Source: a virus. Taken from it: a stretch of 64,000 nucleotides of DNA. Positions within the stretch are counted from its first letter, which is position 1. Every line of letters starts with the position of its first letter. The notes below the pieces were generated by a model. The model had not been told where the DNA came from, did no database searches, and was given only the letters and a program-made list of their open reading frames with translations. The position numbers and the translations under genes are program-made. Location: the IMG/VR virus record IMGVR_UViG_3300021513_000001, positions 1 to 64,000 of that record; one strand, written 5' to 3'. Of this stretch, positions 13,439 through 27,836 are shown piece by piece.

Positions 13439-14572
13439 CTATTTTTTAGCTCCTACAACTTTTTTTAAAGTTTCAATATATAACTGGCCTATAATCTGAT
13501 AATTAAAATATTTAATTACATGTTCTTTAGCAGATAAACCCGTTTTTTTAGCCTCGTTTTTATGTTCATATATATACTTCATTATATCAGAAGCTTGTTT
13601 AACATCAGCTTGTGCCCAACACTGATCTGAAACATACCAAGGAGTATTAATCATTCCAAACACAGGAGTTAAAACATAATCAATTAAATAACTATTATTT
13701 TTATTTAAAAATTGATTTACTCCGCCATATCCAGTTACTATAGAAGGATTCCCAACCGCAGATGCTTCAGCAATAGGTAATCCAAAACCTTCTCCTCTGT
13801 TCAAACTAACAAAACAATCACCAAACTTATGTAATTCTAATATTTCTCTATTAGATAATATATCTAATATTAAATACACTCTAGCATAATTTTTTCCTTT
13901 TGGAAGTATTATACTTTCCTTTATTTTTTTAATTGTTTGTATAACAATATTTTGTTCCTGTTCTGAATAACCATACCTATAAACCTTAAGAACCAACGCT
14001 ACGTTGTCTTCACCACTAAAAGCATGCCAATATGCTCTAAGAAGAGAAACTGGGTCTTTCTTTTCAACCATCTGAAACACAGAATAAAAAATATAATCAT
14101 CTTTTTGTGGGCCATTCATAATAAATTTACCAATGCCATTAAACTGCGTGGTATCTATAATGTGAGGAACACAATATATAGGAACAGTCACCCCACTATT
14201 ACTAAATACTTCAACATTCCACTTACACGGAACAAGTATAGCATCCATGCTATTACAATAATTTATCCAATCATGTGGTATCTTATCAGTCTCCCATACA
14301 GTATATCCTATATTTATTTTTCCTTCTTCTCTATATAAAGGATAGTGTTCTGGAGTTAAATGTATTAAATTAACATCATAATCTATTCGCCTGTTTATAT
14401 AACTTGATAAATAATCTCCAAGTTTTCCAAGATCTGGCCGTTGTTGTTCAAAACTAACAGGTGATAATGTAAGATCAACACCTTGTTCTATCAAAGCTTT
14501 TATATAATGTCTAGCACAAGAACCATAACCACTACCGTCTAGTATAGAACCCCAATATTTTATTTTTAACAT
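13439..14572 (-). CDS. GT4-type (GT-B) glycosyltransferase
   Basis: This 377-residue protein resembles large-phage and bacterial GT4 enzymes: an N-terminal GSGYGSCARHYIKAL acceptor loop, a VWETDKIP segment, VFQMVEKKDPVSLLRAYW near the interdomain region, and the E-x7-E signature NRGEGFGLPIAEASAVGNP near residues 255-273. It is related in layout to the intein-containing transferase at 15105-17561. Its start is 11 bases after repeat copy A, and the repeat end contributes the weak ribosome binding site (CGGA). Confidence 0.86.
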   Translation of the reverse strand: MLKIKYWGSILDGSGYGSCARHYIKALIEQGVDLTLSPVSFEQQRPDLGKLGDYLSSYINRRIDYDVNLIHLTPEHYPLYREEGKINIGYTVWETDKIPHDWINYCNSMDAILVPCKWNVEVFSNSGVTVPIYCVPHIIDTTQFNGIGKFIMNGPQKDDYIFYSVFQMVEKKDPVSLLRAYWHAFSGEDNVALVLKVYRYGYSEQEQNIVIQTIKKIKESIILPKGKNYARVYLILDILSNREILELHKFGDCFVSLNRGEGFGLPIAEASAVGNPSIVTGYGGVNQFLNKNNSYLIDYVLTPVFGMINTPWYVSDQCWAQADVKQASDIMKYIYEHKNEAKKTGLSAKEHVIKYFNYQIIGQLYIETLKKVVGAKK

Positions 14573-14582
14573 AATTAAATCC

Positions 14583-14651
14583 GATGCTTTTTTGTTAACT
14601 TACGTTAACAAATGCACCACTCTCCTTTTTCAGAGTGATGGGGGCATCTCC
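14583..14651 (-). repeat. Dispersed hairpin repeat, copy A (with tnpB 3' end)
   Basis: One of three copies (others at 19975 and 27749) of an element read on the minus strand. The core GGAGAGTGGTGCATTTG leads into a perfect hairpin, TTGTTAAC-GTAA-GTTAACAA (14592-14611), then A6 and GCA. A second small stem CACTCT/AGAGTG spans 14618-14637. The repeat is about 75-80 percent identical to copy B by eye over 69 bases. It ends 11 bases before the start codon at 14572. Confidence 0.8.
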
Positions 14652-14717
14652 CAAAACTCGCAATAAAATGTTGCGAGTGCCATTAATGTCTCTATCGATC
14701 TTGTTTTTTTTAAAATG
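14595..14717 (-). pseudogene. TnpB C-terminal relic (IS200/IS605-type)
   Basis: A 40-codon open stretch ends in TAA and encodes KIDRDINGTRNILLRVLGD followed by APITLKKESGAFVNVS. The DRDxNGxRNI pattern is the RuvC-III catalytic segment near the C-terminus of TnpB, the RNA-guided nuclease of IS200/IS605 elements. An in-frame stop lies at 14718-14720 and no further TnpB sequence is recognisable upstream, so the gene is a remnant. Within it, an 8-base inverted repeat ACTCGCAA/TTGCGAGT (14656-14678) could form an RNA stem. Farther upstream, TGTATC/GATACA near 14725-14770 form another. Confidence 0.72.
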
Positions 14718-14796
14718 TTAATGTATCAGCAACAGTTAATTAGCCTTTATAAATTTCTAATGATACACCCACGATCGAAGGCCGGGAATTACGTGA

Positions 14797-15104: not shown

Positions 15105-17561
15105 TTAAATACTCACAGATTTAAACGGTTTAATTACTTCAGTATTTGTTACTGTAAACTGTGATTTAAATATATTAGATGCTTCATTAAATAAATTAAT
15201 CCATTTAGGTACAATACTACGTTCCCAGGTTAAATTATTTATAACATACTTATAAGCCGCCTCTGCTTTTTCTTTAGCCTCTTCTGGATTATTTATAACA
15301 TGATTCATAACTTTAACAAGATGATCTATATCAACTAAAGGTCTTAAAACCTCATTATCGTTTGGTAAAATAGTATATAAATTTTCATTTGTTCCTGAAT
15401 CTACCAAATAAGCTATATCATCATTTATTAATTCAGGAATCATTGTATTATTTGGCATAATAACGGGTTTTTTTGTTGCCATACCTTCAATCCAAGAGTT
15501 ATGAACTATCATATTTTCTGCTACAAAATTATTAGTATTTTCGACTTGAATATCTACAAGAGTTCCCCTATACGGAACTTTATTAATTGTTTTGATAGGC
15601 AAAAGTAAATATTTTTTATTTTGACTACATTTTTCGCCATTATATACACGATCAGAAATAATGTTAGGTTCTATATTAAACATTTTTAATAATTTTCTTT
15701 TTGAAATACCAGAAACATTTACCTTATATTCAACCCTACTAGTTCTCACAGAACTTAGTATTCCTAGCTTTGCTAAAATTAATCTAAGACCGTAAGCTAC
15801 GTGTTTTGAAGTAGTCGAAAAAGTCATCTCATAATCTGTTTTACAATAACAACCATCACCAATAAACTCACCATTAACAAATTCGATTAAATACTCTAAC
15901 GGTTGATTCAATAAAATAGATGGTATTTTTTTATTTCTAGCCCCATGATCAAACAAATTATAAAATAAATTTGCAACAACAGACGAATAAAATCTAATAG
16001 TTTGACAACCATATTTATTGCCACGACTTTTGTTATCTGTATAATAAACATTTAACCCAAAAACCTTTTTCATTTCATTCGCTACAAATTCAATTATATT
16101 TGTTTCTTTTTTATTAAAACTAAATAAAATACTATCTTTTTTAGAAGCACTAACGCACCCTTCAGCCAAATATAAACCAAATAAACGCATAAGTGTTTTT
16201 GTTATTTTTATTTTTTTAGGTATAAAAATACCAGCATTTTCAATAAAATTAGAAGTTAGCCTAAACATGTCCCCTGTTTCTTCTAAATTTAATATTTGTC
16301 TTGCGTTTAAAGTTTGTGTAACTATATCATATATATCTAATTCGCTTTTTGTTTCAAAATGTTTCTTTGGAAATAATAAATTATCTCCTATTTTTAAATT
16401 CTCAGCTTTTTTCCATATATATTCTCCATTTTCAAAAACTTTAAAACCATGCTCTGGAGAAGTTTTTAATGGTATATTAGATAACCACGTAGTTATTTCA
16501 TAAAGATCACCATCAAAATCTCTCGACATTATTGCTCGAACTTTATTATAAGTTCCGTCATCAGACAAAACTTTATCTTGTATTGTAATATCTCCAATCT
16601 CTTTAAGCCCTTCTTCCGTATATATTGTTGAATGATTACAAATACATAAACCAAAACCTTCTCCTAACGCAGTACTAACAACACAATCACAAGAATTATA
16701 CAAAATATTAACAACTGGAACAGGATATCCCTGATTTGGGCCAAAATTTTGTGGAAATACTACATCTGTTTTAGTACTTAAACCTAAAACTTCACAGACT
16801 TTATCTAATCGCCACCCCTGATCTCTTACTGCCATGTGACAATAAGCTAAAACATTCGAATTAGTTTCTTTTACTTGTTTATATGCTCTTATAAATCTTG
16901 GAATATCTTTTCTTTGTTGATTTCTATTTAAATTACAAAAAATAAACTTATCTGCTTGAGGACCAAAGTATCTTTTCCTAAAATCTACTGCTTCTTGATC
17001 CTGTCTTGGGTAAAAATCTTTATCATTAACCCCGTGATAAATAACTCTAATATTTTTTTTAGTCGCAGTATCACCAAGAGCCAATAATGTAGCATCTTTA
17101 GCAAACTGAGTATAAGCTACAGGAATATCAACCGAAGTTACTGCCTCTGCCCAAGACTTTTTAATAATAGAGTCACATGGATAATAACACAAACTAACAA
17201 ATTTCTTTCCTTGCGCTTTTAATTGCGGAATATATTCTGTAAGAAACTGCAAAATAAAAGAATCTTGCAAAAAAAACAAGATATCAAACTCCATATGTTT
17301 AGCCATTTCCATAAACTTTTTTCTTCCATAAGGATCATGCTCTGAATTTAAACCGGCAGGCCAAATATTAAACACCTGTGTTAATGGTGGAGCAGGTGAT
17401 CCCCAGTAGTTAATTGCAAAAATATCAATATCATATTTACCTGTTTCATATAGCCCTGTAAAAATATTCTTAGCCACTGTTCCAAAACCAGTCGCCACAG
17501 TAGGGCTATCGCAATAAGCCAAAATTTTTAATTTCTTTTGTTGTCTTGGTTGATTAAACAT
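15105..17561 (-). CDS. GT4-type glycosyltransferase containing an intein
   Basis: The 818-residue precursor has a 435-residue extein that is a GT-B glycosyltransferase: TVATGFGTVAKNIF at the N-terminus, YHGVNDKDFYP near residue 175, and FCNLNRNQQRKDIPRFIRAY near 208-227. The extein signature ALGEGFGL-SWIEGMATKKP is broken after Leu305 by an intein (residues 306-688). This is the E-x7-E nucleotide-sugar-binding motif, so splicing should be required for activity. AAGGAG precedes the ATG. It is likely a cytoplasmic sugar transferase of the same glycan pathway as the 2320-14572 cluster. Confidence 0.9.
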   Translation of the reverse strand: MFNQPRQQKKLKILAYCDSPTVATGFGTVAKNIFTGLYETGKYDIDIFAINYWGSPAPPLTQVFNIWPAGLNSEHDPYGRKKFMEMAKHMEFDILFFLQDSFILQFLTEYIPQLKAQGKKFVSLCYYPCDSIIKKSWAEAVTSVDIPVAYTQFAKDATLLALGDTATKKNIRVIYHGVNDKDFYPRQDQEAVDFRKRYFGPQADKFIFCNLNRNQQRKDIPRFIRAYKQVKETNSNVLAYCHMAVRDQGWRLDKVCEVLGLSTKTDVVFPQNFGPNQGYPVPVVNILYNSCDCVVSTALGEGFGLCICNHSTIYTEEGLKEIGDITIQDKVLSDDGTYNKVRAIMSRDFDGDLYEITTWLSNIPLKTSPEHGFKVFENGEYIWKKAENLKIGDNLLFPKKHFETKSELDIYDIVTQTLNARQILNLEETGDMFRLTSNFIENAGIFIPKKIKITKTLMRLFGLYLAEGCVSASKKDSILFSFNKKETNIIEFVANEMKKVFGLNVYYTDNKSRGNKYGCQTIRFYSSVVANLFYNLFDHGARNKKIPSILLNQPLEYLIEFVNGEFIGDGCYCKTDYEMTFSTTSKHVAYGLRLILAKLGILSSVRTSRVEYKVNVSGISKRKLLKMFNIEPNIISDRVYNGEKCSQNKKYLLLPIKTINKVPYRGTLVDIQVENTNNFVAENMIVHNSWIEGMATKKPVIMPNNTMIPELINDDIAYLVDSGTNENLYTILPNDNEVLRPLVDIDHLVKVMNHVINNPEEAKEKAEAAYKYVINNLTWERSIVPKWINLFNEASNIFKSQFTVTNTEVIKPFKSVSI
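15498..16646 (-). other. Intein with LAGLIDADG (DOD) homing endonuclease
   Basis: This 383-residue in-frame insertion begins at Cys306 (CICNHSTIYTEEGLKEIGD, the N-terminal splicing block) and has a block B TSPEHGF near residue 368. It ends FVAENMIVHN with His687-Asn688, followed by Ser689 as the +1 nucleophile, so it is a class 1 intein. Two LAGLIDADG helices are seen, LFGLYLAEG near residues 460-468 and LIEFVNGEFIGDG near 558-570, each with its acidic residue, so the homing nuclease looks intact. All splicing residues appear present. Confidence 0.93.
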
Positions 17562-19936: not shown

Positions 19937-19974
19937 TTTATAATATAACAAGGTGTTTTTATTAACCTGTTACT

Positions 19975-20041
19975 AGTGCTTTTTTATTAACTTGTGTTAA
20001 CAAATGCACCGTTCTCCTTTCTTAAAGTGATATGGTCATTT
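19975..20041 (-). repeat. Dispersed hairpin repeat, copy B
   Basis: This is the second copy of the element at 14583, in the same orientation. The hairpin is TTGTTAAC-ACAA-GTTAATAA (19984-20003). The single change in the right arm still pairs as G-U in RNA. Similarity to copy A extends upstream through ATATCACTTTAAGAAAGGAG, and the encoded ending (KENGAFVNTS and stop) echoes the TnpB tail. It lies in the 152-base gap between the SSB and the 121-residue gene. Confidence 0.78.
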
Positions 20042-20088
20042 CAAAAAACAAACAACAAACAAATACTAATACATCAAATCTACTTTAC

Positions 20089-26647: not shown

Positions 26648-27739
26648 TTATTTAAGCAAAGCCATAAATGATAATTTAATTCCAGTATCATCACTAATTT
26701 TTATTATATTACCATCAAACTGTAAATTAATGTTTTCACCTTTAAACGATGAACACAGATTATATAAAAAAAGAGAATTTAAAAAAACATTAACGTTTAT
26801 TGCATTCTTGTTTAATGCCGTATCCAATTCTAAAGTTGAATCAAATCCATCAGAATTTATCTTCATCCTATTATTATTAATAGTAAGATTTACTTTATTA
26901 TCCTGCTTTCCTTTTGTATCAATATTTGCACCCCTAATAACATTTATAAAACTATTTCGATTAACATAAACACCAGAACCAACAAAATTTATTAAAGAAT
27001 CTAACGAAGGAAAAGCCAAATTTATTTTTGGAGAATAAATAACAACAGCACCAAAATCACACACAAAATAAGTAGAAGAATAACAAATATTAGCATTTTT
27101 ATCTAATAAAGAAGCGATATTAGAAATAGCTCTTGCAGTATTAGATGGAATTACAATAGAATGATCAGAAAACTGATCACTTTTTATAGTATATATACAA
27201 CATCTTACACCATCTGTTCCAGCCAATCTAAACATTTTATTTTTACTTTCAATAAGAACTCCTACGGTTTGAGCTGAATATTTTTCAGAATTATCAGCAC
27301 CTGTTGCGACAAAAGCCATCCCGTCTTTTGCAGTCGCTGGATCTATTGATGCTATTTTGTTAAAATTTTTAGCTCTTATTTTAGTTGTAGTCTTTTCAAT
27401 ATATTCCAAATAAAGATTATTTTTAATTTTATTTTTATTATTATTAACTATTTTAAAAACATTATCTTTTATTAACAAGGAACACGTGCCTTCTTTTCCA
27501 AAATTTTTAATATAACTTATATACTCTATAAATTTATTACAATCAATACAAATATCTATATTACTAGATGTATTTATAAGCGTATCTACAACCACTCTAA
27601 CTTTTTTTCCAGAAGCCATTAAAACTCTTCCATCTTTTGTATAAATATTCAACCAGTTTATATCTTTAGAAATATCAGAAAAACTAAGACATTTAGACAA
27701 TAATAACAAATTAGAAATAATGAAATCAAATTTAACCAT
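26648..27739 (-). CDS. dnaN: Sliding clamp, DNA polymerase III beta-subunit-like
   Basis: This 363-residue protein has the three-domain beta-clamp pattern at usual length: a RLAGTDGVRCCIYTI segment near residues 170-185 corresponding to LVATDGHRL of bacterial DnaN, SIVIPSNTARAISNIASLL near 200, and a C-terminal LYNLCSSFKGENINLQFDG then DDTGIKLSFMALLK, like the end of DnaN. It would tether a polymerase to DNA as a dimer. No polymerase gene is in the window. The start is 10 bases after repeat copy C. Confidence 0.83.
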   Translation of the reverse strand: MVKFDFIISNLLLLSKCLSFSDISKDINWLNIYTKDGRVLMASGKKVRVVVDTLINTSSNIDICIDCNKFIEYISYIKNFGKEGTCSLLIKDNVFKIVNNNKNKIKNNLYLEYIEKTTTKIRAKNFNKIASIDPATAKDGMAFVATGADNSEKYSAQTVGVLIESKNKMFRLAGTDGVRCCIYTIKSDQFSDHSIVIPSNTARAISNIASLLDKNANICYSSTYFVCDFGAVVIYSPKINLAFPSLDSLINFVGSGVYVNRNSFINVIRGANIDTKGKQDNKVNLTINNNRMKINSDGFDSTLELDTALNKNAINVNVFLNSLFLYNLCSSFKGENINLQFDGNIIKISDDTGIKLSFMALLK

Positions 27740-27748
27740 AAAACATCC

Positions 27749-27795
27749 AGTGCTTTTTTGCTAACTTATGTTAACAAATACACCACTCTCCTTTT
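27749..27795 (-). repeat. Dispersed hairpin repeat, copy C
   Basis: The third copy, in the same orientation, retains only the 3' portion of the element: GGAGAGTGGTGTATTTG, then the hairpin TTGTTAAC-ATAA-GTTAGCAA (27758-27777), A6 and GCACT. The single right-arm change again keeps pairing as G-U in RNA. It ends 10 bases before the sliding-clamp start codon, and its end GGAT serves as a weak ribosome binding site. Confidence 0.76.
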
Positions 27796-27836
27796 TTTTT
27801 AATCAATAAAATAATAAATTTTTTTATAATTTATAT

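Follow-up and report, generated by a model that had tools for sequence, protein, structure and literature searches.

The DNA analysed here is a 64,000-nt window, bases 1-64000 of a 114,332-bp virus contig (a metagenomic fragment), and it carries on its minus strand a short repeat, copy A, attached to the remains of the transposon gene tnpB. Judged from the sequence, copy A is in identity and anatomy very probably a non-autonomous insertion of the IS607 family that carries an omega-RNA, the guide RNA of TnpB, in a tailed phage. Directly visible are homology to the right end of tnpB/IS607 elements, a covarying fold, GG at the ends, spread in multiple copies and insertion upstream of gene starts. 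Guide function in trans is a separate claim, to which, taken alone, we give slightly less than an even chance.

The preliminary description of this region had placed a decayed tnpB end at the repeat, and this was borne out. The minus strand at 14581-14709 encodes a 37-aa relic of the TnpB C-terminus, KNKIDRDINGTRNILLRVLGDAPITLKKESGAFVNVS, beginning KNKIDRDINGTRNILLRVLGD. By itself the relic matched no family at E<=1 in a Pfam search, and against PHROG it matched transposase phrog_506 weakly (E=0.21). Over 130 nt its DNA was 91% identical to the 3' end of copy D, a genuine tnpB in this contig, which firmly identifies the relic as a tnpB 3' end. When the whole contig was searched with D, seven copies were found, every one on the minus strand, which is also the direction of almost every gene. 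The three copies described earlier exist, but they are not the full set:
14581..14745, minus strand: copy A, an IS607-type cassette from GG to GG (left end, 3' part of tnpB as predicted omega-RNA scaffold, right end), common to E and F.
19973..20080 (approximate), minus strand: copy B, a decayed right-end stub (GCACTAG) without left end; 27.0 bits with model R1.
27747..27806, minus strand: copy C, a right-end stub (GCACTGG); 28.7 bits with model R1.
~83771-83936, minus strand: copy E, a full cassette.
~84665-84830, minus strand: copy F, a full cassette.
~107845-107913, minus strand: copy G, a right-end stub.
114186-114332, minus strand: copy D, a genuine tnpB cut by the contig end; 69 aa visible, PF07282 at E=5e-9, over the cut-off.
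Copy D has the right end of the other copies, but runs upstream into tnpB; its fragment keeps the RuvC-III motif DRDINGARN (DRDxNGARN), and RuvC-I and RuvC-II lie beyond the contig end. Copies E and F, separated by 894 bp, are identical across 167 bp, and thus at least one of them is recent. A chance repeat as the origin of the copies was rejected. Copies B, C and G, which have no left end and little of the tnpB part, are dead stubs.

Copies A, E and F are cassettes of ~165 bp, each composed of a left end, the guide-RNA scaffold in full and a right end. They open with GG-MTAATTAACTGTTGYTRATACATTAACATTTTAAAA, followed by the final ~125 bp of tnpB and then the right end, which finishes ...AAAAAAGCATCGG; their flanking DNA is unlike on either side. 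With both ends kept, the coding part deleted and several unrelated sites occupied, they have the make-up of non-autonomous elements similar to miniature inverted-repeat transposable elements. The copies had earlier been seen as right-end remnants with a guide boundary after A6-GCA. The right end is indeed that of a transposon and B and C are stubs without the closing helix, but A keeps its left end and complete scaffold; likewise the copies do diverge at the border between scaffold and guide, but this border follows GCATCGG, four bases beyond A6-GCA. The termini of A are as follows:
14707..14745, minus strand: left end, GGCTAATTAACTGTTGCTGATACATTAACATTTTAAAA, with a GGWWRATYAAY start as in cyanobacterial and Vibrio phage left ends.
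14581..14582, minus strand: terminal GG, the IS607 exchange dinucleotide; all copies diverge right behind it, and the empty alleles of Vibrio phages join there.
14561..14580, minus strand: presumed guide (flank), ATTTAATTATGTTAAAAATA, which holds the start codon of the next gene and was placed by homology with IS607 reRNAs (PMC10711439).
The likeness of the left ends was judged by eye (cyanobacterial GGTTGATCAAC, Vibrio phage GGTAAATCAAT, E/F GGATAATTAAC, A GGCTAATTAAC), and a left-end pattern found no match in viral contigs. Annotated phages searched at the DNA level with copy A gave no match. The copy closest to A lies in a different, 22.7-kb viral contig from another phage (L006). In both A and the L006 copy, the loss of a single base breaks the TnpB frame and leaves the RNA intact. 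The L006 copy truncates a cold-shock-like gene, and the same contig carries a tmRNA (L006:1174-1499, minus strand; RF00023, 101 bits).

Pattern searches also turned up right ends of this kind in cyanobacteria (Microcoleus L029, Oscillatoriales L027/L032 and others), where they likewise stand at the 3' terminus of tnpB, and in intact cyanobacterial copies a serine-recombinase TnpA precedes TnpB. In unrelated insertions within one genome the last bases of the right end are exactly GTATCGG, and the left end starts with GG (GGTTGATCAACAG...). IS607 transposases carry out exchange at GG, with GG on both termini and no target duplication (PMC6188088), and this is what was found in A, E and F, in their relatives and at the empty Vibrio alleles. 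The GG termini, the GG-joined alleles and the serine recombinase beside homologous tnpB genes thus assign the element, on sequence grounds, to IS607 and not to IS605. Pattern matches at L008, L031 and L033 were set aside as unrelated or unclear; L008:1169-1271 holds two right-end-like motifs back to back in a long palindrome ending TATAGG/TATCGG, one of whose arms stands 2 nt ahead of a start codon.

The cleanest proof of the IS607 assignment came from Vibrio phages. In 20 cultured isolates a homologous element, with 59-60% identity in the TnpB C-terminus, is located upstream of thyA, and the site is empty in the related phages K470, K406 and 1.161.O. The occupied allele reads GGTAGGGG|TAAATCAAT...AAACTATCGG|TTTCTTGC and the empty allele GGTAGGGG|TTTCTTGC, with no duplication; in short form, the occupied GGTAGGGG|TAAATC...CTATCGG|TTTCTTG stands against the empty GGTAGGGG|TTTCTTG. 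The BLAST match to the empty phages starts at the terminal GG (query position 208). Compared over 20 nt, the natural guide of the occupied phage has 1 mismatch to the empty alleles of K470 and K406 and 2 to that of 1.161.O, beside TAGGGG, which is what homing needs. The Vibrio tnpB is open along its length and the tnpA region has a stop and no intact start, which suggests that the nuclease outlasts the transposase in this element.

To define the RNA, 18 elements (A, E, D, L006, the cyanobacterial ones and L012) were aligned over their final ~110 nt, and RNAalifold chose the structure without constraint. The resulting fold has the following parts in A:
14581..14690, minus strand: predicted omega-RNA (reRNA) scaffold, complete; cmsearch with model R2, 78.1 bits, E=2.1e-15, positions 1-111/111.
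14656..14678, minus strand: P1 hairpin ACTCGCAA/TTGCGAGT, in the 3' codons of tnpB; double-sided changes in 5/10 pairs.
14644..14648, minus strand: 5' strand of the closing helix P4, which adjoins the guide: GATGC, just after P1; pairs with 14583-14587.
14618..14637, minus strand: P2 hairpin CACTCT/AGAGTG; 4/4 consensus pairs covary.
14590..14612, minus strand: P3 hairpin over the right-end GTTAAC repeats; 99.4% of cells paired; includes the tnpB stop codon of D.
14583..14587, minus strand: 3' strand of P4, GCATC, the final scaffold bases before GG; outside the tnpB reading frame, behind its stop codon.
Both sides had changed in 12 of the 28 pairs and 96.8% of cells were paired, none of 500 shuffles reached the observed covariation score, and sliding the partners by 1-3 columns lowered pairing to <=51%. 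In the MAFFT alignment the register of P2 is offset by ~2 columns between phage and cyanobacterial rows. Across the relatives, with the Vibrio element added, P4 was 100% paired as GATGC/GCATC, GATAC/GTATC, GCTAC/GTAGC or GATAG/CTATC; since its 3' strand stands behind the tnpB stop codon, protein coding cannot account for it. P3 may also serve as TnpA-binding repeats; in L052/L057 (cyanobacterial genome G074) it is enlarged by an inserted CCCGAAGGG / CCCGCAGGG stem with pairing kept.

Model R2 was built solely from the 14 sequences originating outside this contig and L006, with the structure borrowed from the 18-sequence fold. It matched E/F at 8e-18, D at 2e-16, A at 2e-15, L006 at 1e-14 and the Vibrio elements at 1e-13, and the empty alleles gave no match; these scores partly reflect plain sequence homology, and the structural evidence is the covariation. 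A structured scaffold that overlaps the 3' end of tnpB and stops at the element end fits an omega-RNA, and the omega-RNA scaffold proposed at the outset is in this respect supported by the fold. Two of the inverted repeats then listed, ACTCGCAA/TTGCGAGT and CACTCT/AGAGTG, are real and correspond to P1 and P2, and the GTTAAC hairpin is P3. The third, TGTATC/GATACA (about 14722-14765), is present but lies beyond the RNA scaffold, and no support for it was found. The comparison with known omega-RNA covariance models proposed earlier gave no credible match of the scaffold in Rfam, RAGATH-18 included.

The strongest competing explanation is that all copies are dead relics, decaying deletion derivatives of IS607 that are too young to have lost their folded look and make no working guide RNA. 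Stubs B, C and G and the copies in another phage record (L007) have lost P1, P4 or both, and the contig holds no tnpA, as this would predict. However, despite several differences between A and E/F (91% identical overall), every pair in P2-P4 is intact; no scaffold pair is newly broken in A relative to E although A lost the TnpB frame, and one pair at the base of P1 changed on both sides, from A-U in A to G-C in E. The three cassettes and the L006 copy, from a different phage, keep the whole scaffold and have lost the rest of tnpB. We regard decay alone as a serious contender that nevertheless falls short of an even chance.

The cassettes are inserted close to gene starts. The distance from the terminal GG to the next ATG is 8 nt in A, 8 nt in E, 5 nt in F and 7 nt in C, and in L006 the GG lies 11 nt ahead of a start codon; in the L007 record 5/5 copies end 4-11 nt before a start codon, some without the final GG. 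The genes downstream of A and C are:
13439..14572, minus strand: glycosyltransferase (GT4-like), PF00534 at 5e-7; ATG 8 nt after the GG of A.
26648-27739: beta-clamp-like gene, PF02767; ATG 7 nt after the GG of C.
By a crude gene call, a GG stands 4-12 nt before a start in 1.1% of all cases on that strand and in 12.6% of intergenic ones. The spacing pattern is not shared by B (36 nt), by G (19 nt, which has a GGAGG of its own) or by D. Two viral contigs without a cassette are syntenic with the E/F region: their gene order matches, and they carry a homologue (42-43%) of the gene behind E. At the site of E these have AAAGGAGG or TAGGAGG, then 7-8 nt, then the start codon, which places E in a Shine-Dalgarno region where the right end restores a GG at about the same spacing; at the site of F the genes directly abut. 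Shine-Dalgarno insertion as a universal rule was rejected, since the Vibrio element is inserted in a terminator-like hairpin. A promoter scan near A (7 versus 4.0 +/- 2.3 in shuffles) was not informative.

This placement could also mean that the right end is a replacement leader for phage translation, built from AAAGGAG, a short GTG-CAT-TTG-TTA-ACR-TAA frame, the hairpin and a GG 5-11 nt before the ATG, and that the short forms are kept for that purpose. The short forms do keep the 3' ~50 nt, mostly 4-11 nt before starts, where only the small share of intergenic GG given above would fall, and some stubs keep the small frame. Against this, cyanobacteria and Vibrio have elements away from starts in which this sequence forms the end of tnpB, closeness to starts is expected from insertion into a Shine-Dalgarno GG, and stub B is 36 nt off. 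A leader function of this kind appears improbable.

The guides of the cassettes overlap gene starts, and phages with nuclease-dead TnpB repressors (TldR) exist (PMC13418256). The idea, raised at the outset, that the RNA is a domesticated guide with which a TldR-like protein acts on phage or host promoters was not borne out and is very unlikely. The guides are simply the cassettes' own insertion flanks, as in any TnpB element, and had no second match in the contig or the loci compared; the sole TnpB fragment, D, has an intact RuvC-III motif; and GG-bounded spread in multiple copies is transposon behaviour. An IS200/IS605 right end with a subterminal hairpin bound by Y1 TnpA, where TnpB and such a hairpin occur as well, was already refuted by GG at both ends, the GG-joined empty alleles and the serine recombinase, and can practically be dismissed.

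For a non-autonomous IS607 insertion with an omega-RNA, the following mechanism is proposed. An IS607 serine recombinase, which may lie past the contig end, would have moved the cassettes by GG-GG exchange. Transcription of the phage operons would give one omega-RNA per cassette, with the flank starting after GG as guide; in ISXfa1 the fixed nucleotide of the flank counts as scaffold (PMC10711439). A TnpB in trans would load this RNA and cut empty alleles, with an upstream RGG, for example the Shine-Dalgarno GG, as the target-adjacent motif (TAM). The IS607 TnpBs characterised in other work cleave at the TAM AGGAG or GAGGG (PMC11061315), which resembles a Shine-Dalgarno sequence. The left flanks here are AAAGG, AGAGG, TGTGG and TAGGGG (Vibrio) and the right end shows CGG, from which we infer a TAM of RGG type; F (TGG) and L065 (CGG) are exceptions to an RGG left flank. 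Since the right end carries CGG instead of RGG, the element would not cut itself. In mixed infections, cutting at empty alleles would favour retention or homing of the cassette, much as TnpB acts for insertion sequence elements in plasmids (PMC11870625). Beyond this, the cassettes may form trans-acting sets in which each records its own Shine-Dalgarno site and one TnpB serves all, with RNA-guided homing into rival phages and guide maturation coupled to expression of the downstream gene; this we consider possible but rather unlikely.

Several observations weigh against a working guide system. The search for an intact TnpB or TnpA proposed earlier yielded the TnpB C-terminus in D and no tnpA in the 114-kb contig; a serine-recombinase TnpA is present in the homologous elements, and the only tnpB of the contig is cut by its end. 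Only the last 69 aa of TnpB are present, and an autonomous partner may be lacking. Decay has affected most other copies (B, C and G, and five in the L007 record), as would be seen in plain relics. No relatives of the gene behind A were found, hence its empty site was not seen. Finally, the guides of A, E, F and D, and also that of L006, had no second target in the contig or the loci compared (<=4 mismatches, GG before).

Among known systems, the cyanobacterial IS607 elements with DPG-type TnpB ('pro-Fanzors', PMC10711439; for example in Microcoleus L029) share the right end, the scaffold fold and the GG termini, but encode tnpA and tnpB, whereas the phage cassettes are ~165 bp and gene-less. 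The C-terminus of D is 44-60% identical to cyanobacterial TnpB C-termini, with 60% to a DPG-type one; pro-Fanzors were reported exclusively from cyanobacteria (PMC10711439). The pro-Fanzor clade is marked by DPG in RuvC-I together with a relocated RuvC-II Glu; relatives carry ALDPG, and the 69 visible residues of D do not extend to RuvC-I. The element at thyA in Vibrio phages 184E37.1 / 355E48.1 / F88-F102 has the same scaffold family and exact GG insertion, but differs in being present once per genome with a long tnpB frame, DVG in RuvC-I and a decayed tnpA, and in its insertion site. The RAGATH-18 reRNA of IS607 TnpB (PMC11061315) likewise combines IS607, a G-rich TAM and a scaffold at the 3' side of tnpB, but its Rfam model was not matched. 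TldR systems share the phage setting and a TnpB-derived RNA; no nuclease-dead protein or repressor-type guides were seen here. Standalone omega-RNAs occur for IscB in Ktedonobacter, and gene-less IS605 derivatives in Geobacillus.

Other features were seen as well. At 15105-17561 of the window (minus strand) a glycosyltransferase gene is split by a LAGLIDADG-bearing intein (PF14890 1e-15, PF14528 3e-11); inteins in glycosyltransferases seem unusual. The record with five right-end stubs has an intein/LAGLIDADG block in its terminase large subunit gene (L007:4243-7086), and a free-standing LAGLIDADG_2 homing endonuclease gene (5e-25) lies at 109867-110706 of the contig (L004:5867-6706, minus strand). 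The 188-kb 'virus' record IMGVR_UViG_3300032431_000001 (L005/L074) holds 14 TnpB-type genes and IS607 elements and is probably not a phage.

The cassettes would represent a phage case of omega-RNAs usable in trans without a nuclease gene, which may have been reported before, and an IS607 guide-RNA family without a credible Rfam match. They link the G-rich, GG-containing target and TAM of IS607 with Shine-Dalgarno sequences, and they are closely related to the bacterial TnpBs from which the eukaryotic Fanzors have been proposed to descend. With occupied and empty alleles and a matching natural guide in Vibrio phages, RNA-guided homing between phages is directly testable.
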